In this document: piece by piece, positions 19,681-45,257 of the stretch
Position numbering within the stretch: the stretch's first letter is position 1
Layout: each line of letters starts with the position of its first letter
Assembly (NCBI GenBank): GCA_964036045.1
Contig: OZ038378.1
Location: 40,673,228 to 40,737,227 of the forward strand
DNA: 64,000 nucleotides
Source of the DNA: Eutreptiella sp. 'Long Island Sound 2002'
Lineage: Eukaryota > Euglenozoa > Euglenophyceae > Eutreptiales > Eutreptiaceae
Reading direction: 5' to 3'
The notes under the pieces: model-generated
Told to the model about the DNA's origin: nothing
Database searches by the model: none
What the model saw: only the letters and a program-made list of their open reading frames with translations
Translations under genes and position numbers: made by a program

Positions 19681-21240
19681 TAACTTGGCGCCACCGTGAC
19701 TGTTTTCAAAACCGTTTTTTTTTGTTTGAAAGCCCCCTTTGTGTAGAATACATCGATGTATTTCAATATGACTCATATCCAACTGTTTCCGAAACATGTT
19801 GCAATGTTTCAATTTGTCTTGGTAAATTTTTTCGAAAAATTTCACTGATTTTTAGGGGGGGATTTTTCTCTCCCGGGACGTAACTTGGCGCCACCGGTGA
19901 GTTTTGTGGCGCTTTCTTTTGGACAATGTCCTTTGAAACATGTCCTAAAACAATATCATTGGCCGTGCTAGGCCGCCTCTTGCTCACTTTGAGCTATTTT
20001 GTTCGGGGGGTGGGGCTCCCCAGGTTTGACCGCCACAGTGGTACACAGTATTTTTGGGGATGCACCGAAAGTCCCGGGGGGCTAACTTGGCGCCACCGGT
20101 GAGTTTTGTGGCGCTTTTTTTGAGAATGTAGCTTGAAGCATGTACTAAAAGAATATGCTTGGCCGTGCTAGGACGTCTCTTGCTCACTTTGAGCTATTTG
20201 CGGGGGATGGTGGGGGCATTCGCCTGTTTTCGGCAATTTTTGCCATGTTGCACGGTGGGTGCAACAAATGTCCCGGGGGGGTAACTTGGCGCCACCGGTG
20301 AGGATTGTGGCGCTTTTTTTTGGACAATGTCCTTTGAAACATGTCCTAAAAGGATATCCTTGGCCGTGCTAGGCCGCCTCTTGCTCACTTGGAGCCATTT
20401 TGGTCGGGGGGTGGGGCTCTCCAGGTTTGACCGCCACAGTGGTACACAGTATTTTTGGGGGTGCACCGAAAGTCCCGGGGGGGTAACTTGGCGCCACTGG
20501 TGAGTTTTGTGGCGCTTTCTTTTTTAAAATGTAGCTTGAAACATGTACTGAAAGGATGTGCTGGCCGTGTCAGGCCATTCTCTGCCCACTCTGAGCTAAT
20601 TGGGGGGAATGGTGGGGGGGTTCGCCTGTTTTGGGCAATTTTTGCCATGTTGCACGGTGGGTGCAACAAATGTCCCGGGGGGTTAACTTGGCGCCACTGG
20701 TGAGTTTTGTGGCGCTTTTTTTTTGGACAATGTCCTTTGAAACATGTCCTAAAAGGCTATGCTTGGCCGTGCTAGGCTGCCTCTTGCTCACTTTGGTCTT
20801 TTTTGGTCGGGGGGTGGGGCTCTTCTGGTTTGACCGCCACAGTGGTACACAGTACTTTTGGGGGTGCGCCGAAAGTCCCGGGGGGGTAACTTGGCGCCAC
20901 CGGTGAGTTTTGTGGTGCTTTTTTTTAGAGTGTACCTTGAAACATGTACTAAAAGGATATGCTTGGATGTGCTAGGCGGTCCTTTGCTCACTTTCAGCTA
21001 TTCGGGGGGGATGGTGGGGGGGTCACCTGTTTTGGGCAATTTTTGCCATGTTGCACAGTGGGTGCGACAGATGCCCCGGGGGGGGAACTTGGCGCCACCG
21101 GTGAGTTTTGTGGCGCTTTCTTTTTGACAATGTCCTTTGACACATGTCCTAAAAGGATTTGCTTGGACGTGCTAGGACGACTCTTGCTCATTTAGAGCCA
21201 TTTTGGGGGGGATGGTAGGGGGTGAAGGGGTTTCGTGGGT
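19681..21240. repeat. Tandem satellite: eight ~200-bp monomers alternating A/B type
   Basis: A monomer beginning TAACTTGGCGCCACC recurs at 19681, 19881, 20083, 20282, 20484, 20684, 20887 and 21085 (last with G for T), a period of 198-203 bp. From 19881 on, alternate monomers share different second halves. Type A contains GACCGCCACAGTGGTACACA; type B contains GCAATTTTTGCCATGTTGCA. The order is A-B-A-B-A-B, so the higher-order unit is a ~402-bp dimer. The first monomer (19681) and the last are the most divergent. Open frames crossing it are a by-product of the repeat and not genes. Confidence 0.9.
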
Positions 21241-32931: not shown

Positions 32932-35287
32932 TGAAGCCGGTTCGGACCCCCGTGGCCATCTTGGGGTCACTTGGGGTGTGTATCTATGTGCCGGCAAGCC
33001 GCCATTGGCTGATATCATACTCTCCCATCCACCTGATCTAACCCGATGTGATAGTGTGATAGGTTTGGCCATTCCGGCTATGAGCGGCCACAGTCAGTAC
33101 CGAGGCGCCGCCAGCGGAGATTTATATATCAGAATATCAGGAATCAACAGGGTTTTATTATCATAATGTTTCCGTAATTTTTCAGCCTTTCGTTCTGATA
33201 GTCAATGTATCGGCGACTGTCAGTTGGCTCGCGATTTTGCGTTAACCGATTGGTTAACTGTTATTTCCAGATATTTTGGCGGATATTCCGTTGAAGGGTC
33301 AGATCTCATCAGCAAAGGGTTCGTTGCTTCCGCAATTCTCTAAATAAGCACTCGAAATTTTAATCAGAATTTTTCGCGATGTCGAAATCGGATTTTCGAC
33401 TTCGACATCGCCGCACTTGATTTGGACTTCTTCGAGTGGTCGTACACCTTTCCCTGTGTCCGAATCAGGTTTCCCTTATCCTTGCCACCCATTTGACTTG
33501 GAGATATAAGGGAAACAAAATCGAATCGTGGGACCACTTTGAAGGATCATATCTACGCGCGAGTGTGAGGAACGAGAATAAGGAAGGTTGGGTTGCAAGC
33601 ACCTTCGTCTCAACTTAATTTAGGAAGCATCAAACGCCTTTGGTGCGTACACATGCCCGGTGTAGCAAGGGATAATGGTCTAGAGGGTATAAAGTGATAT
33701 ATAACTCTTGGACCGTGCAACCGAATATTTTAATGCGACTTTCGAGTGTACCGCATGAGTGTTGGGGTTGCATAGATACTTTCCTTGGGTTCCTACGTAT
33801 TTTTAACGTGAAGTTATGTCCATGGAGGGGCATGGCATATCATGGTGGGAGCCACTTTTGAGGGTATGTTTTATATGCATGGTATATGTCTTGATATGCT
33901 CACGCCCATGTTATATATCTTCGTGTGGCCGAAGAGATGGGGAGCCATACGTGACAAGGGCCTTGCCCATGTCCCAATTGTGGAATTCAAAGCGCTAGAC
34001 CAAGTCTACCGCGTATGTATTGCTCATGGTATGTTTGACAAAGAGATCCATGGGTGCACTCCCATTTTCATGGGGCATGTAGATATTAGTGGCGAGGGTA
34101 TCTCCATGCGCCCGATCGGGGATCCAAGTGGGGGAATTGTTCGCAAATGGTTCCAATCATTTGTGTATTTAACCATGAGCGGATATCATGGGTGAGCATA
34201 GAGATATACTATCATGACAACTTTGAATTTGGTCATATTTTCATGTTTTTGACCTCAATTTTTGCTCATTTTTGCGTTTTGTGTACTCACCTGGTCAGCT
34301 AACAGCAAGAAGCCTATGGAGAGTCGAACCATGGTATGTTGTTCATATGTTGGCATATGCTTTGGAGTTGAACACCACCATATGCCGGATCGCGTACTCC
34401 ATTTGGCTTGGCGCACGAAGGATCACAAGAATTGGTCTCAAAATCATGGGCTGACTTGGGCAGTGCGTGGCGCCCATATCCGAAGGGGTTTCGAGGGTAA
34501 AGTGGGGATGTACATGGGCATTGGCCTTTGGTCTCTATCCTCCATGAATGGTAGACTTTGATTCCATGCATGCTTGGAGCCTTCGGATAAGTGGTAACTT
34601 CAATTTTGAGCATATATGTGATATATGGCCAATATGGTGTGAATTGGCAGTTTTTTGGCATGTTATGAGTTCAAACTCATAGGTCATTTCTCTAAGCCCA
34701 TTCGACTTCAAGTCCAACCAAGGTTATGTCAGGGTAGTGCATGGTCCTCAGTGTCACTCTAGGCCATGACACACCACCTCCCCTATTGGGCTAGGATTTA
34801 GAGGCTTGGGAGTGAACACATTTTTGGGGTTTGTGTAGTGACTTTTGACACATGGCATTCAGCCATCTCGTTTGACCGGGTTCAGGGCAATATGTTGGTG
34901 AGTCAAGGGAAGGTCTTGAGTCCAGGGAATGAGGGGTTTATGGCTGTGAGTGTGTATGTTTACCTCTTTCCCCAACTTTGCTTTATTTGTGTTCATATGC
35001 CAATTTCAGGGCTTTCTTCCTTGGTGCAAATCTTGTACATGCCCGCCATCGTGAGACAATCGATGTGCTGAACGAAAGCCCGCAGCCTGATTTGGATTGT
35101 GAATTGGGTTATTGCTGTACTTGTGGGATCTGGTTGCCATTCAGGGTTGAAGGAGGATTTTATTTTCTATATTTTTGGATTTGGACCCTGGAAATTGAGG
35201 AATGCAATCGTTGATCCGGAGTAAATCAGCAGGGGTTACAGGCGGAAGGGGCACAGCGGGGGCCGGTCCTGGTAGGGACCTTCTTTA
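32932..35287 (+). repeat. 3' LTR of copy B (2,356 bp)
   Basis: The same length and ends as the 5' LTR, with a small number of base differences and no length change. It keeps the ATG of the gag N-terminus (35202-35204) that the 5' LTR has lost. That frame runs out of the element into TRIM-1 sequence and stops at about 35474. Confidence 0.95.
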
Positions 35288-35301
35288 TGAGTTCCATTAC
35301 A
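35288..35301 (-). repeat. TRIM-1 middle LTR, right fragment
   Basis: TGAG target duplication (35288-35291) plus the last ten bases of the LTR broken at 22090. Joining the two halves without copy B gives the uninterrupted 274-bp repeat. Confidence 0.85.
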
Positions 35302-35523
35302 CTCCCTTCACAAGCCATGTGCAGGGTGCTGAGGCACCAGGCACAGGACTGACAAGAGATATGATGGACCTCAGCACTGCACAAAATAGACACTCAGAAA
35401 GCGTTACACCTAGCACTGCACCTAGCACAGGGCTGATACAGAGCATGATGGACTCAGCACTGCATCGGATCTGAGTTAGATCATTAAGAAGTGTCTAAAT
35501 CTTTTTTTTTCGAACACTGGGAT
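35302..35523 (-). mobile_element. TRIM-1 internal region, second copy (222 bp)
   Basis: Nearly identical to 21605-21826 and the same length. Non-coding. Confidence 0.75.
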
Positions 35524-35797
35524 CGTAATAATCTTGGAGATCTTCTCTTTTGAGTGCTATTTTTGCCGTGATCTCCTTAGTGATTTCGAAATCCAAATGC
35601 GAATCCGGCAACGGCGCAGCACGTGATTGATCTCATAAATCACTACATAGTTTCATCCCAGTGTTCTGCACAGTACACAAAATGAATTCGATTCAATAGT
35701 TTAATAATTGAATTGCATTGCACTGAGCTTTACATATGCACGCACGCGCGTTCACTAAATGATCGCGGTCTGCGCGCACGTGCTGAGTTCCATTACA
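35524..35797 (-). repeat. TRIM-1 LTR, rightmost (274 bp)
   Basis: The 5'-most LTR in the element's own (minus) orientation. ATCC at 35798-35801 pairs with ATCC at 21327-21330 as target duplication. The insertion point is about ten bases past the stop codon of the transposase gene on the same strand. Confidence 0.82.
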
Positions 35798-35810
35798 ATC
35801 CTCCAAGGCA

Positions 35811-37298
35811 TTAGCTCGTCGGCGGTGCAATGCCGGTGTCCGGCAAGCGCAAGCCGCCCAAGCTGGCCAATGCATACGCAAGCGCATTGGAGTCGGTATT
35901 GGGGATAGACATAGGGATAGAAAATGGCAACGCCGAGGATGATGATGATGAGTGCATCGCACATGCAAACGGATCCAGCGCCATGGAAAAAGAAGGAAAG
36001 GACATATCTGGCAACAGGGGAACGGGCGGCGAACTGGAGGCAAGTGTGCCAACATTGGGAGCGGGTGATGCATTCAAGCTATGTGCACCATCGGCCACGG
36101 GTGGCAACCCAAGACAACCTACGACGGCTTCAACCATGGTGGCTTTGCCTTTTGGCTTTTTTTTGTTGCGACTAAGAAGGATGGCTCCTAGTTGCTCTAC
36201 CGTCAACTTGTGTACATCCTCCGCACAAGTCAATCCTGTGGTTAGCGTGGAGGCAAGGACGCAAGCATCTTGTTTCTTTGATGCCATCTCATCCTCTCGG
36301 GCTTGCCTCTTCCTCGCATCCTCATCCTCCTTTGCCTTTCGCTTCTCAGCAGCCGTGCGCACCAAAGCAAAACAAACATCAGATGTGATTGGACCCTTGT
36401 CCCACAACATGGAGCTTGTCAAGCGTGTGGTTTGTGTTGTGGGGTCCACAACCTCTTCTCTGTTGTCCGTTCCAAACATGGTTTGAACCATGTATTGCAC
36501 ATTCAACTTAGATGCATCAGGATCAACTTTGGAACATGCTTTATCCCGTGCCCGTTCCTTCTCCACAAGCTCCCAATACACCTTACGGGTAAAAGGGACC
36601 ACACCAATGGAATGCCATGCCCTATGATTATTGGCAATTGAAAAGCCCTCTTGCCATGGAGCACACAGGCAATTGCAAAAGTGGTCAAAGCCCATACGGT
36701 ACCTTCCCTTCGTGATCAACTCTGCCAATTTCTTATGCCGTGCAACCCTCCATCCTCCCTTTACTAATTTGAAATTACGACGATCCTCAGCCTGCAAGGC
36801 GGCGGTCGTGTAAAGGGGCCGCAACACCAACACAACACCCATTTCGCGACACAAAATGAGAAACTCATATGTCATGTGGGAACCGTGCCCATCACAAATC
36901 AAAACAATGGGGTTGGAGGGGGAAACGGCGTGGGATCCTTGAAACAAAGGAAGGATGTTCCACTTAACGTATCGGATGGCACCATCATCATGTTTCATGG
37001 TGCCGGTGGTGTTGCATGCAAAAGTGGCTGCAAACACACGAGGGGGGTCCTTGCTAACATCAAGGATGTCAGAAAGGGGTGCAGCCTCAGTCGAAGTGGC
37101 TTGAATGCTCTCCGCGGCAAAGATAATGTGTGCCGGGGTGGCAGAGCCATTGGCAAGACTACCTCCTACAGCAGTGGCGGAGCCACCCGCCTTAACCGCA
37201 TGAGTTTGCCCTTTGTCCGACAACTCTTTGGCAATGGTTGTCCGTGCCCTGCGTGCGCGCAATGGTGCATTTTTTCCATAGTGCGCGCAAATTTCCAA
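35811..37298 (-). CDS. pogo/Tigger-type DDE transposase (DDE_1 fold), probably lacking its N-terminal exons
   Basis: The minus-strand frame ends at TAA 35811-35813. The middle matches the catalytic domain of pogo-group transposases, the family that also gave rise to CENP-B-like host genes. A hydrophobic strand leads to ICDGHGSH (Asp near 36,890), then 35 residues to the next catalytic Asp in LQAEDRR (near 36,783), the usual spacing. The typical later block with NNHRAWHSIGVVPF (near 36,640) also follows. The first catalytic Asp is not evident, so it probably lies in an upstream exon. The 5' end of the open frame (37298 to about 37245) runs through GCGCGC repeats, and a CAG at about 37248 is a likely true exon start. 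A Lys/Glu/Arg-rich helix (about 36370-36270) and a Ser/Ala/Pro-rich tail follow. It could be a transposon copy or a co-opted host gene. Confidence 0.72.
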   Translation of the reverse strand: MEICAHYGKNAPLRARRARTTIAKELSDKGQTHAVKAGGSATAVGGSLANGSATPAHIIFAAESIQATSTEAAPLSDILDVSKDPPRVFAATFACNTTGTMKHDDGAIRYVKWNILPLFQGSHAVSPSNPIVLICDGHGSHMTYEFLILCREMGVVLVLRPLYTTAALQAEDRRNFKLVKGGWRVARHKKLAELITKGRYRMGFDHFCNCLCAPWQEGFSIANNHRAWHSIGVVPFTRKVYWELVEKERARDKACSKVDPDASKLNVQYMVQTMFGTDNREEVVDPTTQTTRLTSSMLWDKGPITSDVCFALVRTAAEKRKAKEDEDARKRQAREDEMASKKQDACVLASTLTTGLTCAEDVHKLTVEQLGAILLSRNKKKPKGKATMVEAVVGCLGLPPVADGAHSLNASPAPNVGTLASSSPPVPLLPDMSFPSFSMALDPFACAMHSSSSSSALPFSIPMSIPNTDSNALAYALASLGGLRLPDTGIAPPTS

Positions 37299-37347
37299 AA
37301 ATGTGACCTTTATAGCGCGCCTATTGCGCGCGCTCTACCGCGCTATA
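37249..37347 (-). repeat. GC-palindrome array I (irregular), upstream of the transposase exon
   Basis: Five GCGCGC-type motifs at about 37253, 37281, 37315, 37326 and 37337. Spacing is irregular (28, 34, 11, 11), unlike the other arrays. It ends at a CAG that can serve as a splice acceptor for the transposase exon on the minus strand. Confidence 0.6.
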
Positions 37348-37545
37348 TTGTCCCGTTTTTCAAATTTTTCAAAACCGGAAAATGTTTCAAAACCATGCTT
37401 TTTCCAGTGTCCTGCGTTTCTCCAAAGCCCCTTGCTTTTCAAAAACATTCCCTGTTGCTCATCCAAACCAAGACACATGCAAAAACACTGTCTGAAAGGT
37501 CTCAAAAGTGTGCAACAGTACAGGTCCTCACAGGCACAGACAGTG
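37348..37545. other. AT-rich spacer between arrays I and II
   Basis: Non-coding; contains several A/T-runs and no motif I can name. It separates the transposase gene from the Gln-rich gene. Confidence 0.4.
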
Positions 37546-37619
37546 TAGCGCGTGCAACATATTTACAGCGCGCGCTATGAGCCTTACAGCGCGCGCTATA
37601 CCAGGTATAGCGGGCGCTG
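37546..37619 (-). repeat. GC-palindrome array II (21-bp period), just past the Gln-rich gene's stop
   Basis: Twelve-base units at 37546, 37566, 37587 and 37608 (steps 20, 21, 21), for example CAGCGCGCGCTA. The array begins four bases after the TGA at 37624-37626 on the minus strand, so it lies in the 3' untranslated region or an adjoining intron. Confidence 0.85.
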
Positions 37620-37623
37620 TCAT

Positions 37624-40600
37624 TCAGTGATCTCCTTAATGGTTTGGACCACCACTTCGGCCTCCCACTCCTTCTCCCATTCGGGTCTGTGGTCTTCTGC
37701 CCCAGTGGCAGCTGGGGCTGCATCCCCTTCTTCTTGTGGGCTTGGGTTGCCTTCTGGGGCTGCTCCTTCTGGTGCCTCTTCTTCTTTCGGGGCTGCTCCT
37801 TCTCCTTCTTGTGGTGCGGCCGCTGGTGCCTCTTCTTCTTGTGGTGGGGCTGGTGCGTCGTCTTCTTGTGCTGCTGCTGCTGCTGGGGCTGGTGCCTCTT
37901 CTTCTTGTGCAGCTGCTGCTGGTGCTTCTGCTGGTGTTGCACCTTCGGCAGGTCCCTTGTCTTCTTGTGGGGGGTAAGGTAAGGTAAGGTAAGGTAAGTT
38001 GCTCGGGCGATCTCCGAACTCCAGCGTATCAGTGATCCCTACCTGTCCCTCGCAGCATCCCTTCCGGCTCGCGGGGTCACCGACACCCTAGCGCCTAGGA
38101 CACTGCGTTCCGCCCCCACCGGGGTTCGAACCGACGCTGCATCCCTTCCGGCTCGCGGGGTCACCGACACCCTAGCGCCTAGGACACTGCGTTCGGCCTC
38201 CACCGGGATTCGAACCGAGCACCTTTAGTTCAGGCGTCACGTGCATGACCGCTGAACTACGAGACCTTCTCTCTTCTTGTGGGGGGGCTGGTGGCTGGGC
38301 TGGTGGGTCTCCTTGGGGCTTCTTCTTCTTTGGGGTTGGTGGCTTGGACGGGGACATCCTCATGGTCTTTTGGTCGGGGCAGAGGTCCACGATTTCATCG
38401 GCCTCGTACGTCTCCCACCACGACTGCCACTTGTCAAACTCCTCATACGCTTTGCTTTTGGCGGAGAACACCTGGCAGCTGGGCATGAACTCCGACCAGT
38501 CGTCCTCTTCCTCCTCCTCCTCCCCTTGTTGGCTGGGGCTCCACTGATCGTTGGGGATGATGACGGCCACGTGGTCCTGAGGTGCCCTGGCGCCTGCTTG
38601 CTTGACCTCGGCTCCCTCCACAATCATCGGCGCGATCGCAGTGGTGCAGTAGATGATCCACCGTGGCTTGTAGCCTTTTTGGTAGGACCAATCTGGGCGC
38701 TGCATGAGCTCATCTCTTGCCTCCTTGTCCGCGTCGGCTCTGCTCTGCTGCTTGGCCTTGGGAGCCGTACTGGATTGGGTGGAACCGCGTGGATCTCCTT
38801 CTTCTTGTGGCTGGTCTGGGACTGGGACAGGCAGCTTCGGTGCTGGCTTTGATGCGAGCTGCGGCTGGGGTGCCTGCTGCGGTGTCGTCCTGCTTGCCTT
38901 GAAAGAGTAGCGCAGAGGCATAGCACAGGCATAGCACGCGCAATACGGAGCATAGCACGCGCGACGAAATGCATAGCACGTGCAATGACAACGATAGCGC
39001 GCGCTGCATTACCTTTTCTGCTTTCTCCTCCTCTGCTTTCTTCCGTCTCTTCTCCTCCTCTTCCTTCTCCTTCTTCTTCCTCCTCTCTTCCTCTTCCTTC
39101 TTCTTCCTCTTCCTCTTTTCCTCCTCTTCCTTCTCCTTCTTCTTCCTCTTTCCCTCCTCTTCCTTCTTCCTCTTCTTTGCTTCGTCCTCTTTCATCTTGG
39201 CCTGTTCCGCCTGACGTTGGACTCTCTGTGCCGCCTGTGCCAGCAGCTGCTGGTCGGCAGTCTTCTGGGCAAGGACCTTTCCAGGCGGGTGGGGGGGCTT
39301 AGCGGTGTGGGAGGCGGAGATGGCTGGTGGTAGGTGGCTGGTGGCTGCTGGCTCCTCGGTACGCTTCTTCTTTGGCCTTAGGACTGTCACGGATTCCGTC
39401 TCCGGCACGGCAAAGGCGTCGGCCCAGTCCACCTCCAGCTCCTCCAGCTGCCGCTTAGCCCGGGCCAGCACCGGGGAGGGGCCTTGCTCCTTCCGTCCGT
39501 CAAGCCAGTTGGCGGCATGCTTGGACTGCCCGGCAATGTCCGCGGGCATGCTGGTCATCAACGGCCCTCTGCGGGATCCCAGGCACAAGAGCTGCTCGAA
39601 GCTGCCCACCTACGTGACAATGGGACAGAAGGTAGGGCCGTAGCGCGCGCAAACAATCAAATCGCGCGTGCTACATCTAATGAAGCGCGCGCAACAATGT
39701 CAAAAGCGCGCGCAATGGCAAACATAGCGCGTACCTGTGTCTGTGCCAGTTGTTGTTGTTGTTGCTGCTGATGCTGGGCCATCTGCACCCGCTGCTGCTG
39801 CTGGAGCAGCTGCATTGTTGCCTGCTGCACGGCTGCCTGCTGTTGGAGCTGCTGCTGCTGCACTTGCTGCTGCTGCTCCTCGTCCTTGACCGCCGTGGTT
39901 TTGACTTTGGCGCCGGTTGCAAGTGCCCTTGCGGCACTGTCTCCTTTCTTGGCTGACCACCGCAGCAAACTGTCACCCGCACTTCTCACCGAGGCGCACT
40001 CGTTCTTGAAGGCCATTGCCCCTGCGTCGGTCGCGTTGATGAAGCTCGGTGGGTCCTTGTTGAAGTAGAAGTGGTGGACGGTCTTTGCGGTGGCACCCGG
40101 AGGCGTGTGGGTCCGAACATGACCCCACCCATAACTTGCCCAGCACGAGAACAGCAGCTCGTACTCCTCCACCTTGCAGTTTCCACCGGCAGCTTGTCCT
40201 TCTTTGGTTGGCACGGAGGGGTTCAACAGGTTCGCCAGACTGCACCAGTGGCCAGTAATGCTCTCTTCATGCCAGCAGGGTTTCACGGCTCCTTCTGGGA
40301 TCTTGGCAATGGCCGTGGCCCCTTGGCGCCAGAACTTTTAGAAGGCCACCTCAAAGAGGTAGGCCGGTGTCATGTCCTTCAGCCATGCCCAGTCGGGCCC
40401 TTGGGCGCAGATGGTGCTGTTTTGGTTGGGCCAGTTTCGGTTCTTGAAGTCGCTGCTGAGGGTGAAGCCCTTACGTGGCCCGGGTGGGGGGAACTGAAAC
40501 TGTGCTTGCACTTGGGGTTGCTGCTGTCTTTGTTGGACCTGCTGCTGCTGCTGCTGCTGCTGCTGTTCTGGGCTGCCGATTTGCTGGGCCGCAGCCTGCA

Positions 40601-41134
40601 CTTGCTGCTGCTGCATTTGCTGCTGCTGCTGCACTGGCAGTGGGCCGAAGAGCACTTGCTGCACTTGGCCCACTGGAAGACTGCCGCGCACTGGGGAGCC
40701 CAAGGTGGGCGACCCACCGGGGAACAGCATGGGAGAGAGCTGCTGTGAGGCAGCTCGTAGCGGGGACTGCGGCGCGGGCCACAGAGGCTGGGTTGGGAAG
40801 AACTGGGTCAGCTGCTGGGACAGCGTCTGCGGAAAACAGGACAAAGCACGCGCAACGAGGACGTGCGTAGTGCGCACAACGAGACAGCTAGCACGCACAA
40901 CAAGAGCGTAGCACGCGCAACGGAAACAGTAGTGCGCATGGCAAGTACCTGTGGCTGCATGCTCCATTGCGTCGTGGACGGCTGCTGCAGTCCCGGTTGT
41001 ACAGCTGCATGTGGCGGTGGTTGCGGTGTCTCAACTGCTCTTGTGGCCCCTGCAGCAGTTGTTGGCGGTGCTGCAGGAGGCGGATACCCCCAGCCTATGG
41101 GCTGCATGGGCAAGAGGGTTGCATTAAAGTACCC
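37624..41134 (-). CDS. Gln-rich, charged-helix protein of unknown function, at least four exons
   Basis: Exons on the minus strand: 41134-40949, 40826-39735, 39609-39013 and 38897-37624, joined by three phase-0 GT-AG introns. The frame changes across introns 1 and 3, so splicing is needed. The protein has a Pro/Gln/Ala-rich start, two poly-Gln tracts (about 40640-40510 and 39880-39745), and a conserved-looking Trp/Cys/His-rich domain (about 40430-39900). A ~60-residue Lys/Glu/Arg block (39190-39013) fits a single alpha-helix. A Trp-rich acidic domain follows (about 38700-38380), then a PPQEEE-type acidic tail. An in-frame TAA (40338-40340) interrupts exon 2, and a SINE in the last exon puts a new stop at 38172-38174. 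The ancestral tail ended at TGA 37624-37626. Upstream exons are probably missing. I recognise no family; it is likely broken now. Confidence 0.6.
37975..38271 (-). mobile_element. tRNA-derived SINE with target-site duplication
   Basis: On the minus strand it starts (about 38271) with a tRNA-like head. An acceptor strand GGTCTC pairs with GAGGCC, and an A-box-like TAGTTCAGCGG and an anticodon-like stem (CGCCT with AGGTG) follow. A perfect B-box GGTTCGAATCC lies near 38215. The body holds an 85-bp tandem duplication (38054-38138 and 38139-38223), each copy with its own B-box. The 3' end is a short repeat tail (TTACC)n at 37998-37975. A 15-bp direct repeat, TCTTCTTGTGGGGGG, flanks it at 37960-37974 and 38272-38286. 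It interrupts the coding region of the Gln-rich gene. Confidence 0.85.
38898..39012 (-). other. Intron 3 of the Gln-rich gene (115 bp), made of GC-palindrome array III
   Basis: Minus-strand GTAATG...TTTCAAG. Motif units TAGCACGCGCAA-like start at 38932, 38953, 38974 and 38995, exactly 21 bp apart, with two degenerate units at 38908 and 38921. Phase 0: the helix codons GAA AAG end exon 3, and GCA AGC begins exon 4. Confidence 0.85.
39610..39734 (-). other. Intron 2 of the Gln-rich gene (125 bp), made of GC-palindrome array IV
   Basis: Minus-strand GTACGC...CACGTAG. GCGCGCGCAA-type cores start at 39643, 39664, 39685, 39706 and 39727: four consecutive steps of exactly 21 bp. The last core overlaps the 5' splice site. 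Phase 0 on both sides. Confidence 0.88.
40827..40948 (-). other. Intron 1 of the Gln-rich gene (122 bp), made of GC-palindrome array V
   Basis: Minus-strand GTACTTGCC...TTTCCGCAG. Cores start at 40846, 40870, 40891, 40911 and 40932 (steps 24, 21, 20, 21). Phase 0. Its length is not a multiple of three and the reading frame differs on the two sides, which supports real splicing. Confidence 0.87.
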
Positions 41135-41306
41135 CTGTTCCAGCAGTAATACAAAAAGGAAAATGCAGTAACAAAAAAATCGAAATCACCAAGAAAAACG
41201 GACGAAAAGGAACAAATCAATGCATTCCAAATTGGAGGCACATTTGAAGTGCGTAGTCATAGCACGCTGCTTCCAATCATATATCGCGATTTCAAGGGTT
41301 CCGGCG
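41135..41306. other. Spacer or intron upstream of the Gln-rich gene's first visible exon
   Basis: On the minus strand it ends in a splice-acceptor-like GGAACAG before 41134. It carries T-runs and one degenerate GC motif near 41262. It could be the 3' part of an intron that begins at array VI. Confidence 0.4.
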
Positions 41307-41319
41307 CTTGAAAACAGCA

Positions 41320-41395
41320 TAGCGCGCGCGAGAGTGGTCATTGCGCGCACTAGATAGCATGTAGCGCGCGCTAAAAAACAAATAGCGCGCGCTAC
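41320..41395 (-). repeat. GC-palindrome array VI (21-bp period)
   Basis: Cores start at 41322, 41343, 41364 and 41385, three exact 21-bp steps, two of them the perfect TAGCGCGCGCTA. It starts directly at the end of the coding exon 41396-42041, either as an intron opening with GTAGCG (41395) or just past a TAG at 41392-41394. Confidence 0.87.
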
Positions 41396-42041
41396 CATAG
41401 TTCCTCATCCGCAAAATATGCCCGAACCTCGTCAGCCAATTTTTGTGCATTGCACAGGTTACTTCTGCAGGTCCCATTCCACCTTGGTACTTCAAAGTAC
41501 AGGAACAGACGCCCATTCACCTGCCTGAGCATCTTAATGCGGCGCGACACCAGGGTTCCTGCCTTCCCACCTCTATCACAAAAGGAGGACCAAATGTCCT
41601 TCAGCACCCTGTTGCTCCCTTCCAAAAGGTCCCCCGAAAACATTCCTAGGCCATAGGGCCTTATGGCCTGAATAGTGACTGTAGCATCGTGCAACATCCA
41701 GTTAATATAAGGTGATCTTATTGCTGGACAAACCCACCTCCGGAAAGCCTGGGCAACCTCTGGAGCCTGCAATGCACCCTCTTCAAACATTGTGCCATAC
41801 ATGTCCGCCAGTAGTATGTACATTGCACCAACTGCTGTGTGCATCCTCATGTCACCCCAAAGGAGGGGGGCCGGGTCCTCCCAAACCTTTAGAAGGCACC
41901 AAGTCTCTTCCCCATCTGGCTCTGCCGTCCCCTGTAGTGCTATGTGACAACCAGACCTGTGAAGAATAGCCTGAACAGAGACCCTAGTACTGGGACACAC
42001 AGACTTGGCCAATCTGCGTACCAAGGCAGTGACCTGCCTCC
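41392..42041 (-). CDS. Exon of an unidentified, transposon-like protein, interrupted upstream by copy D
   Basis: The minus-strand frame follows a splice-acceptor-like TTTTTGTAG (42042 side) and is open to TAG 41392-41394, or to a splice donor at 41395. It contains Trp/Cys-rich segments and a block HDATVTIQ...YGLGMFSGDLLEGSNR (about 41700-41610). The small-residue, Glu-x2-Asn pattern there recalls C-terminal parts of some eukaryotic DNA-transposon proteins; that similarity is from memory and weak. The N-terminal exons would lie beyond copy D outside the window. It may be the upstream part of the Gln-rich gene, but the phases (2 versus 0) do not match. Confidence 0.4.
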
Positions 42042-42091
42042 CTACAAAAATCAGAAGGTGCAGAACACATGGTATGAGGTGACGCCGCCTC

Positions 42092-42891
42092 TGAAGCCAG
42101 TTCGGACCCCCGTGGCCATCTTTGGGTCACTCGGGGTGTGTATCTATGTGCCCGCAAGCAGTCAGTGTGCAAGCCATTGGCTGATATCATACTCTCCCAT
42201 CCACCTGACCTAACCTGATGTGATAGTGTGATAGGTTTGGCCATTCCAGCTATGAGCGGCCATATTCAATACCGAGGTGCCGCCGGCTGAGATTTATATA
42301 TCAGAATATCAGGAATCAACAGGGTTTTTTTATCATAATATTTCCGTAATTTTTCAGCTGTCCGTTCTGATTGTCAATGTATCGGCGACTATCAGTTGGC
42401 TCGCGATTTTGCGGTAACCGATTGGTTAACTGTTATTTCCAGATATTTTAGCCCAAACCCCGATGAAGGGTCAGATTTCATCAGAAAAGGGTTCGTTGCT
42501 TCCGCAATTTTCATGTTATACACTCGCAAAATTAATCCGATTTTTCCCGACATTCAGGATCGGATTTTCGACTTCGAGGTCGCCGCACTGGATATGATGG
42601 ATTTCGAGTGGTCCTACATTTTTCCCCGATCACGAATCAACCTTCCTTTTGTTGTCTCCTTCATTTTTCTTCGAGATATAGGCGAAAAAAAATTGATTCG
42701 TGGGGCCACTTTGAAACATCATATCTCCGGCTCACTGCGAGGAGTTTCAATTTTGAGATATGGGCTGGAATCGCCTTGGTCTCAACTTAATTCAGAAAGC
42801 GTCAAACGCCTTTGATGAGTACATATGCTCGTTGTAGCAAGGGATAATGGTCAAGAGGGTAGAAAGTGATTTATAACTCTTGGACCATGCT
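42092..42891 (+). repeat. 5' LTR of copy D, first part
   Basis: Starts TGAAGCC and carries the TATA-like box at 42293-42302. It differs from the other LTRs by a 14-base insertion near 42160 and many substitutions. It breaks off at CTTGGACCATGC; the last four bases (42888-42891) are the target duplicated by copy C and recur at 57992-57995. Confidence 0.9.
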
Positions 42892-45257
42892 AAAGAAGGT
42901 CCCTACCAGGACCGGCCCCCGCTGTGCCCCTTCCGCCTGTTACCCCTGCTGATTTACTCTGGATCAACGATTGCATTTCTCAAAATCCTCAAAGTCCAGG
43001 GTCCAAAATCCAAAAATATAGAAAATGTAATCCTCCTTCAACCCTGAATAGCAACCAGATCCCACAAATACAGCAATAACCCAATTCACAATCCAAATCA
43101 GGCTGCGGGCTTCCGTTCAACACACCGGTCGTCTTACGGTGGCGGGCATGTACAAGAATTGCCCCAAAGAAGAAGGCCCTGAAATTGGCATATGAACACA
43201 AATAAAGCAAAGTTGGGGAAAGAGGTAAACATACACATTCACAGCCATAAACCCCTCATTCCCTGGACTCAAGACCTTCCCCTGACTCACCAACATATTG
43301 CCCTGAACCAGGTCAAATGAGATGGCTGAATGCCATGTGTCACAAGTCACTACACAAACCCCAAAAATGTGTTCACTCCCAAGCCTCTGAATCCTAGCCC
43401 AATAGGGAAGGTGGCGTCTCATGGCCTAGAGTGGCACTCAGGACCATGCCCTACCCTGACATAACCTTGATTGGACTTGGAGTCGAATGGGCTTAGAGAA
43501 ATGACCTATGAGTTTGAACTCATAACATGCCAAAAAACTGCCAATTCACACCATATTGGCCATATATCACATATATGCTCAAAATTGAAGTTACCACTTA
43601 TCCGAAGGCTCAAAGCATGCATGGAATCGAAGTCTAATATTCATGGAGGATATAGACCAAAGGTCAATGCCCATGTACATCCCCACTTCACCCTCGAAAC
43701 CCCTTCGGATATGGGCGCCACGCACTGCCCAAGTCAGCCCATGATCTTGAGACCAATTCTTGTATTCCTTCGTGTGCCAAGCCAAATGGAGTACGCAATC
43801 CGGCATATGGTGGTGTTCAACTCCAAAGCATATGCCAACATATGAACAACATACCATGGTTCGACTCCCCATAGGCTTCTTGCTGATTGCCGACCAGGTA
43901 AGTACACAAAATGCAAAAATGAGCAAAAATTGAGGTCAAGAACATGAAAATATGACCAAACACAAAGTTGTCATGATAGTATATCTCTATGCTCACCCAT
44001 GATATCCGCTAATGGTTCAATATACAAATGATTGGAACCATTTGCGAACAATTCCCCCACTTGGATCCCCAATCCGGTGCATGGAGATACCTTCGCCACT
44101 CTTATCTACATGCCCCATGAAAATGGGAGTGCACTCATGGATCTCTTTGCCAAACATACCATGAGCAATACATACGCGGTAGACTTGGTCTAGCGCTTTG
44201 AATTCCACAATTGAGACATGGGCAAAACCCTTGTCCCGTATGGCTCCCCATCTCTTCGGCCACACGAAGATATATAACATGGGCGTGAGGATATCAAGAC
44301 ATATACCATGCATATAAAACATACCCTCAAAAGTGGCTCCCACCATGATATGCCATGTCCCTCCATGAACATAACTTCACGTTAAAAATGCGTAGGAACC
44401 CAAGGAAAGTATCTATGCAACCCCAACACTCATGCGGTACACTCGAAAGTCGCATTAAAATATTCGGTTGCACGGTCCAAGAGTTATATATCACTTTATA
44501 CCCTCTTGACCATTATCTGTTGCTACACCGGGCATGTGTACACACCAAAGGCGTTTGATTCTTTCTTAAATTAAGTTGAGAGTAAGGCGCTTGCAACCCA
44601 ACCTTCCCTATTCTCTTTCCTCGCACTCCCGCGTAGATATGGCCATTCAAAGTGGTCCCGCGATTCACTTTTGTTTCCCTTATATCTCCAAGTCAAATGG
44701 GTGGCAAGTATAAGGAAAACCTGATTCGGGCATAGGGAAAAGAGTATGATCACTCGAAGAAGTCCAAATGAAGTGCGGCGATGTCGAAGTCGAAAATCCG
44801 ATTTCGACAACGCGAAAAATTCAGATTAAAATTTCGAGTGCTTATTTAGAAAATTGCGGAAGCAACGAACCCTTTGCTGATGAAATCTGACCCTTCAACG
44901 GACTATCCGCCAAAATATCTGGAAATAACAGTTAACCAATCGGTTAACGCAAAATCGCGAGCCAACTGACAGTCGCCGATACATTGACCATCAGAACGAA
45001 AGGCTGAAAAATTACGGAAACATTATGATAATAAAACCCTGTTGATTCCTGATATTCCGATATATAAATCTTCGCTGGCGGCGCCTCGGTACTGAATCTG
45101 GCCGCTCATAGCCGGAATGGCCAAACCTATCACACTATCACATCGAGTTAGGTCAGGTGGATGGGAGAGTATGATATCAGCCAATGGCGGCTTGCCGGCA
45201 CATAGATACACACCCCAAGTGACCCCAAGATGGCCACGGGGGTCCGAACCGGCTTCA
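42892..45257 (-). repeat. 3' LTR of copy C (2,366 bp)
   Basis: On the plus strand it reads TAAAGAAG...GGCTTCA, the reverse of the family-I ends. It follows the polypurine tract GAGAAGGGGGG (45268-45258, minus strand) and is nearly identical to 55627-57991. Confidence 0.94.

Follow-up and report, generated by a model that had tools for sequence, protein, structure and literature searches.

Between positions 37247 and 42091 of the window, by which we mean the whole 64,000-nucleotide (64-kb) stretch of DNA that was analysed, a truncated copy of a transposon lies on the minus strand and carries two genes, termed C and A, together with six arrays of a 12-bp GC palindrome. Gene A (37620-41107, minus strand) is predicted to consist of four exons (41107-40949, 40826-39735, 39609-39013 and 38897-37620) that join in frame, and the three predicted introns between them are GT-AG introns, all of phase 0. 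An in-frame TAA stands in exon 2 at 40338-40340, and the copy of gene A in the window is probably inactive, because homologous copies read through at that site. Gene C (41392-42090, minus strand) is present as the 3' part of a gene. Next to the element lies gene B (35811-37246, minus strand), the C-terminal part of a DDE_1-like transposase that is broken by the element end; its match to DDE_1 (PF03184) misses the cut-off in the window (E 9e-4) but passes in the homologue P0007 (E 7e-8). As far as can be seen, gene B belongs to a family other than that of the array-bearing transposon.

A Pfam scan of six open reading frames that together cover much of gene A gave no DNA-binding family above cut-off, and the matches below it, TFIIA (E 8e-4) and GAGA_bind (E 0.011) among them, fall on Q-rich or KE-rich stretches. 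Gene C and six homologous open reading frames gave no convincing Pfam match, comparison of a gene C homologue with solved structures returned a single match at the level of chance (E 0.85), and no viral contig encoding a relative of gene C was found. The structure models are poor for both genes (mean pLDDT 39.5 and pTM 0.26 for gene A; 46.0 and 0.25 for gene C). Text patterns for the three exon junctions, which loose or diverged junctions would escape, found no intronless or spliced gene A among 194 homologous proteins.

Several other features accompany the element. Exon 4 of gene A holds an insert (37960-38286) that lies between two copies of the 15-bp direct repeat TCTTCTTGTGGGGGG. The insert has a (GGTAA)n tail (37973-37998), and 84 bp of it are duplicated; on visual inspection it resembles a tRNA-derived sequence, and it is probably a SINE. 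ARAGORN and Rfam gave no match on this insert, and Rfam and tRNA scans across the window found nothing. Long inverted repeats, 93-95% complementary, flank the island at 33189-35287 and 42891-45000 (in a search limited to 33000-45000), and probably belong to oppositely oriented LTR retrotransposons. Reverse-transcriptase/integrase polyproteins are present in the window and, like the predicted introns and the long contigs that carry the relatives, indicate a eukaryotic source. A tandem array is found at 19880-21222, where the unit is 200/401 bp and its longer form is repeated about 3.3 times.

Judged by comparison with its relatives, the array-bearing island is a multi-copy transposon and not a host gene island. 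The relatives listed comprise 69 proteins for gene C and 118 for gene A, on contigs that reach 6.5 Mb in length; the 118 include the window's own protein (contig of 1,657,498 bases), and single clusters represent up to 129 sequences. The same structure recurs at many places, with a sharp common end beside different sequence where three junctions fall at one place, and many of the relatives are open reading frames that continue from an exon into an array. In P0061, P0181 and P0182, gene C is joined straight to gene A, as would be expected of internal deletions of one element. Four copies of gene C (P0019, P0039, P0031 and P0056) run into recurrent foreign sequences, one starting GCSVLG in two of them and one starting GMQRSRAWCGTP in the other two, which are perhaps other mobile elements.

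The three junctions together place the element end at 37247. Homology to gene B stops there: six of its eight homologues span the start of gene B in the window, and their alignment to the window begins only at 37256-37241, where array I borders, and continues towards lower positions, while the remaining two begin further downstream and are uninformative on the break. P0066 and P0186 align on the plus strand from 37248, the preceding part being gene C in one and exon 4 of gene A, in another frame, in the other; these two junctions may also have arisen by rearrangement within the family, because both neighbours are parts of it. The alignments fit an element start of CCCTGCGTGCGCGCAATGG at 37247 (37247-37265, plus strand), with which the codons of P0066 and P0186 agree. 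The other end of the element is missing from the window, as an LTR-like repeat starting TGAAGCC cuts gene C at 42091/42092.

All six arrays belong to this one truncated copy, in its parts outside the predicted exons. Three of them fill the introns of gene A on the minus strand: array V (40844-40920) with a further, decayed unit at 40930 in the 122-nt intron 1 (40827-40948), array IV (39641-39736) in the 125-nt intron 2 (39610-39734), and array III (38921-39006) in the 115-nt intron 3 (38898-39012). Two stand at gene ends, namely array II (37546-37619, four units), whose first base directly follows the stop codon of gene A, and array VI (41320-41394, four units), whose outer unit edge is the stop TAG of gene C (41392-41394). 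Array I (37251-37347, five irregular units) sits at the element tip, between genes A and B, and starts 4 bp inside the element end. The original prediction of introns built from a palindrome holds for arrays III, IV and V, in the three predicted introns of gene A, and does not extend to I, II and VI; with three of the six arrays at gene ends or the tip, a general role in defining introns is not borne out. That array I might be an intron in gene B was also considered and rejected: the six of eight homologues that span this point run through it, and the window does not contain their N-terminal part.

The spacing of the units is exact over runs in four arrays. Steps of precisely 21 bp are kept in runs that start at 37566 (three units), 38932 (four), 39641 (five) and 41320 (four), and of the unit pairs in the island that lie less than 150 bp apart, 13 are spaced by 21 bp, a further 8 by 42 bp and 4 by 63 bp. 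No run of at least three units was found in the island at periods of 18, 19, 20, 22, 23 or 24 bp, none of 300 simulated first-order Markov islands had a run of at least three units at exactly 21 bp, and outside the island the 64-kb window contains no further run of this kind. The core positions first given for arrays III, IV and VI were reproduced exactly on rechecking, as were the steps of arrays II (20, 21, 21) and V (24, 21, 20), in which the 21-bp phase is partial. Array III has an extra weak unit 11 bp ahead of its first unit, and array I, with irregular steps of 28, 34, 11 and 12, does not keep the 21-bp phase.

The claim that these units cluster in the island also stands, with 24 of the window's 32 GCGCGC (12.5 expected) falling within 37255-41392 and 41 of the 46 matches to TAGCRCGCGCWA inside the island (at most two mismatches, both strands counted; 8.8 expected). 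Units that agree with the originally proposed consensus at nine or more of 12 positions number 30, non-overlapping, at 37200-41400 and 92 in the window, unit counts that are to be read with the caveat that the search consensus was derived from these very arrays; three of the island's 30 (37999, 38588 and 39456) match weakly, stand alone and belong to no array. Chance in GC-rich DNA was considered as an explanation and rejected: of 58 bacterial stretches preselected for a pair of 10-bp palindromes spaced by 21 bp, one reaches at least three units, and the scan found no viral contig in which two perfect 12-bp units keep this distance. A length of 21 bp is two helical turns of DNA and also seven codons. 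A repeat coding for a heptapeptide was nevertheless rejected, the arrays lying outside the predicted exons and one of them containing a stop codon.

Cores and spacers differ sharply within the window. Over 18 units, with array I and the odd-spaced units left out, the identity of cores is 0.80 for the 26 pairs within arrays and 0.76 for the 127 pairs drawn from different arrays. The spacers, as had been noted, are not conserved: their mean identity is 0.299 for 13 within-array pairs, as against 0.292 when shuffled (p 0.46), and 0.301 for 65 pairs from different arrays, and a common spacer sequence is absent. Neutral tandem repeats, in which slippage multiplied a 21-bp unit wherever the element could tolerate this and the copies then inherited the result, would explain why the arrays are confined to sequence outside the predicted exons. 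Slippage that preserves the 21-bp step and 80% identity among the cores should nonetheless not leave the 9-nt spacers of an array at the level of shuffled sequence, nor would it be expected to give six separate arrays one common core. Such a contrast is what constraint on site and phase would produce.

Moreover, the arrays recur in other copies of the element, where their positions are constant in a protein-level comparison. Among the 194 homologous proteins, a strict filter (E 1e-8, 12 codons, 55% identity) finds array I read through in 2, II in 2, III in 50, IV in 28, V in 11 and VI in 4, and a looser one (45 nt of array, E 1e-4) in 2, 15, 51, 31, 11 and 4, counts that are not independent because the copies are related. 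Residues matching splice sites were seen in the same set for the donor of intron 3 (27), the acceptor frame of intron 3 (24), the donor of intron 2 (22) and the acceptor of intron 1 (9).

In these copies the core codons are about half as variable as the spacer codons (pooled 0.084 against 0.184, p 0.006), variability being taken as minority residues per nonsynonymous opportunity, with border-straddling codons excluded and the spans of III, IV and VI trimmed. The difference is found for array III (0.085 against 0.207, 50 proteins, p 0.035), whereas arrays IV (0.106 against 0.192, 29 proteins, p 0.11), V (0.057 against 0.092, 11 proteins, p 0.19) and VI (0.029 against 0.139, four proteins, p 0.13) are not significant singly. 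Plain identity to the window is higher in cores than in spacers for I, III, IV and VI, and shows no core advantage for V (0.908 and 0.917) and II (0.913 and 0.909). In a rough comparison with coding parts, drawn from other subsets, exon 2 varies at 0.096, exon 3 at 0.091 and gene C at 0.139, so that cores appear about as little variable as coding exons, and spacers more so. This low variability is seen although the cores are full of CpG. Overall, the evidence for constraint on the cores is moderate, coming as it does from amino acids compared across copies of shared ancestry. The difference between core and spacer is likewise moderate, which leaves room for neutral repeats, and common positions alone are no proof of function because the copies share ancestry; weighing both sides, we regard a neutral origin as unlikely.

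The same cores are CpG-rich and alternate purine with pyrimidine, and at two helical turns apart they could also form a target for host chromatin, whereby CpG-dense phased arrays would position nucleosomes, form Z-DNA or attract silencing. An element should not keep a target for its own silencing, however, yet its core codons vary less than its spacers, and we judge this explanation improbable.

A palindrome can fold in either strand, and a function at the RNA level has to be weighed, in which adjacent palindromes would pair as hairpins in the transcript and aid splicing or 3' end formation. Any two units are able to pair, three arrays lie in introns and two at stop codons, and the sense strand folds with z of -3.5 in VI, -2.5 in II and -2.1 in III (-1.3 in I, -1.7 in IV). 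The antisense strand, however, gives -1.9 (I), -5.1 (II), -1.9 (III), -4.2 (IV), 0.0 (V) and -2.7 (VI), so that the sense strand is the stronger in III, V and VI and the antisense strand in I, II and IV, without a consistent preference for the transcribed strand. The sense z of intron 1 (array V) is only -0.8, a hairpin does not need an exact 21-bp step, and one array sits at the DNA tip. The RNA-hairpin option of the original prediction is hence not favoured, and we consider it quite unlikely; exact helical phase with free spacers would seem to suit a row of proteins on DNA better.

The original prediction also allowed for a mobile, intron-forming repeat, and introner-like introns that spread by means of the palindrome could be imagined, as the three introns of gene A consist of array. 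Introners are reported to derive from DNA transposons in many lineages (PMC9860276). What is seen here are fixed places in the copies of one transposon: it is copies of a single gene that carry these introns again, the introns have no common sequence beyond the cores, and nothing similar, and no other 21-bp run of three or more units, is present elsewhere in the 64-kb window. Such spreading is very improbable.

Of the three options first offered, a protein-binding array is the best fit, and the best reading of the locus, to which we give about an even chance, is a putative helically phased platform for protein binding that is spread through the non-coding parts of the element. A protein encoded by the transposon, either the product of gene A or the transposase, would recognize the 12-bp GC palindrome as its DNA site, and the two-turn spacing would set bound dimers on one face of the DNA, where they could assemble next to one another. 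For transposition, the element end would be marked by the tip array. Through the arrays in introns and at gene ends, the same protein would cover the stretches between the coding parts of the element and regulate its own transcription. Binding, the identity of the binding protein and the effect of binding are the parts of this reading that we infer. Counting against a platform are the Pfam matches of gene A, which are all below cut-off, the poor structure models, the place of known subterminal repeats near transposon ends, the irregularity of array I and the partial phase of arrays II and V, the core-spacer differences of IV, V and VI that are not significant singly, and the strong sense fold of array VI (z -3.5). 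A precedent, and the pattern on which the arrays would work, is found in TNPA of maize En/Spm, which is described as binding subterminal repeats, as required for transposition and as able to block RNA polymerase (PMC2613891).

It is tempting to go one step further, although only tentatively, and to regard the introns as set aside for DNA-binding platforms in an undescribed transposon family, in which phased sites for the element's own protein fill the non-coding gaps. The protein would coat the element as DNA, and splicing would remove the intron sites from the mRNA; one kind of array could then act at once in transposition, in the element's regulation of its own transcription and in control at gene ends. 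Arrays of binding sites at transposon ends are already known. In contrast, we know of no case of introns made of little else than phased palindromes, and none is among the literature matches listed. If binding were confirmed, these would be introns kept for DNA rather than for RNA, and the element would offer a natural many-copy array for testing the role of helical phase in the assembly of transposon proteins.

Finally, the element invites comparison with several known systems. It resembles En/Spm and other CACTA elements (with their TNPA sites) in carrying several copies of a short motif near the transposon end, seen here at one end with arrays I and II within 0.4 kb of the tip, in having more than one gene, and in its internally deleted derivatives P0061, P0181 and P0182. 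The sole end resolved here reads CCCTGCG, however, and not CACTA, and no Pfam match to a Tnp2-type transposase was seen in the window's gene C or in the available parts of six homologous open reading frames; membership in CACTA is not claimed, because neither the end nor the transposase family matches. A transposase of the KDZ type (Kyakuja-Dileera-Zisupton), for which Pfam includes a model, gave no match at E up to 5 in six gene C open reading frames. Known subterminal repeats lie near the ends and not in introns, whereas the sites here are in 21-bp phase, unlike those of En/Spm, and fill introns and gene ends as well. A similar array, with palindromic AAGCGCGCGCTT-like units at 21 bp and GCGCGC, is found in a Phycisphaerales MAG (L007:5596-5790); it differs in lying inside a 106-aa open reading frame, where it would encode a heptapeptide repeat, and no relation to the window was seen.

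With introners (PMC9860276) the element shares the supply of intron sequence by a transposable element. It departs from them in that a gene of the transposon itself contains the introns, which reappear at the same positions from copy to copy; of the introner trait of highly similar introns in many different genes, the 64-kb window shows this element alone, with unrelated spacers. In geometry, parallels are offered by the iterons of plasmids and the site arrays of EBNA1, where repeated protein sites about 21 bp apart lie on one face of the helix. Those arrays serve replication origins, whereas the arrays described here occupy introns, gene ends and the tip of a transposon.
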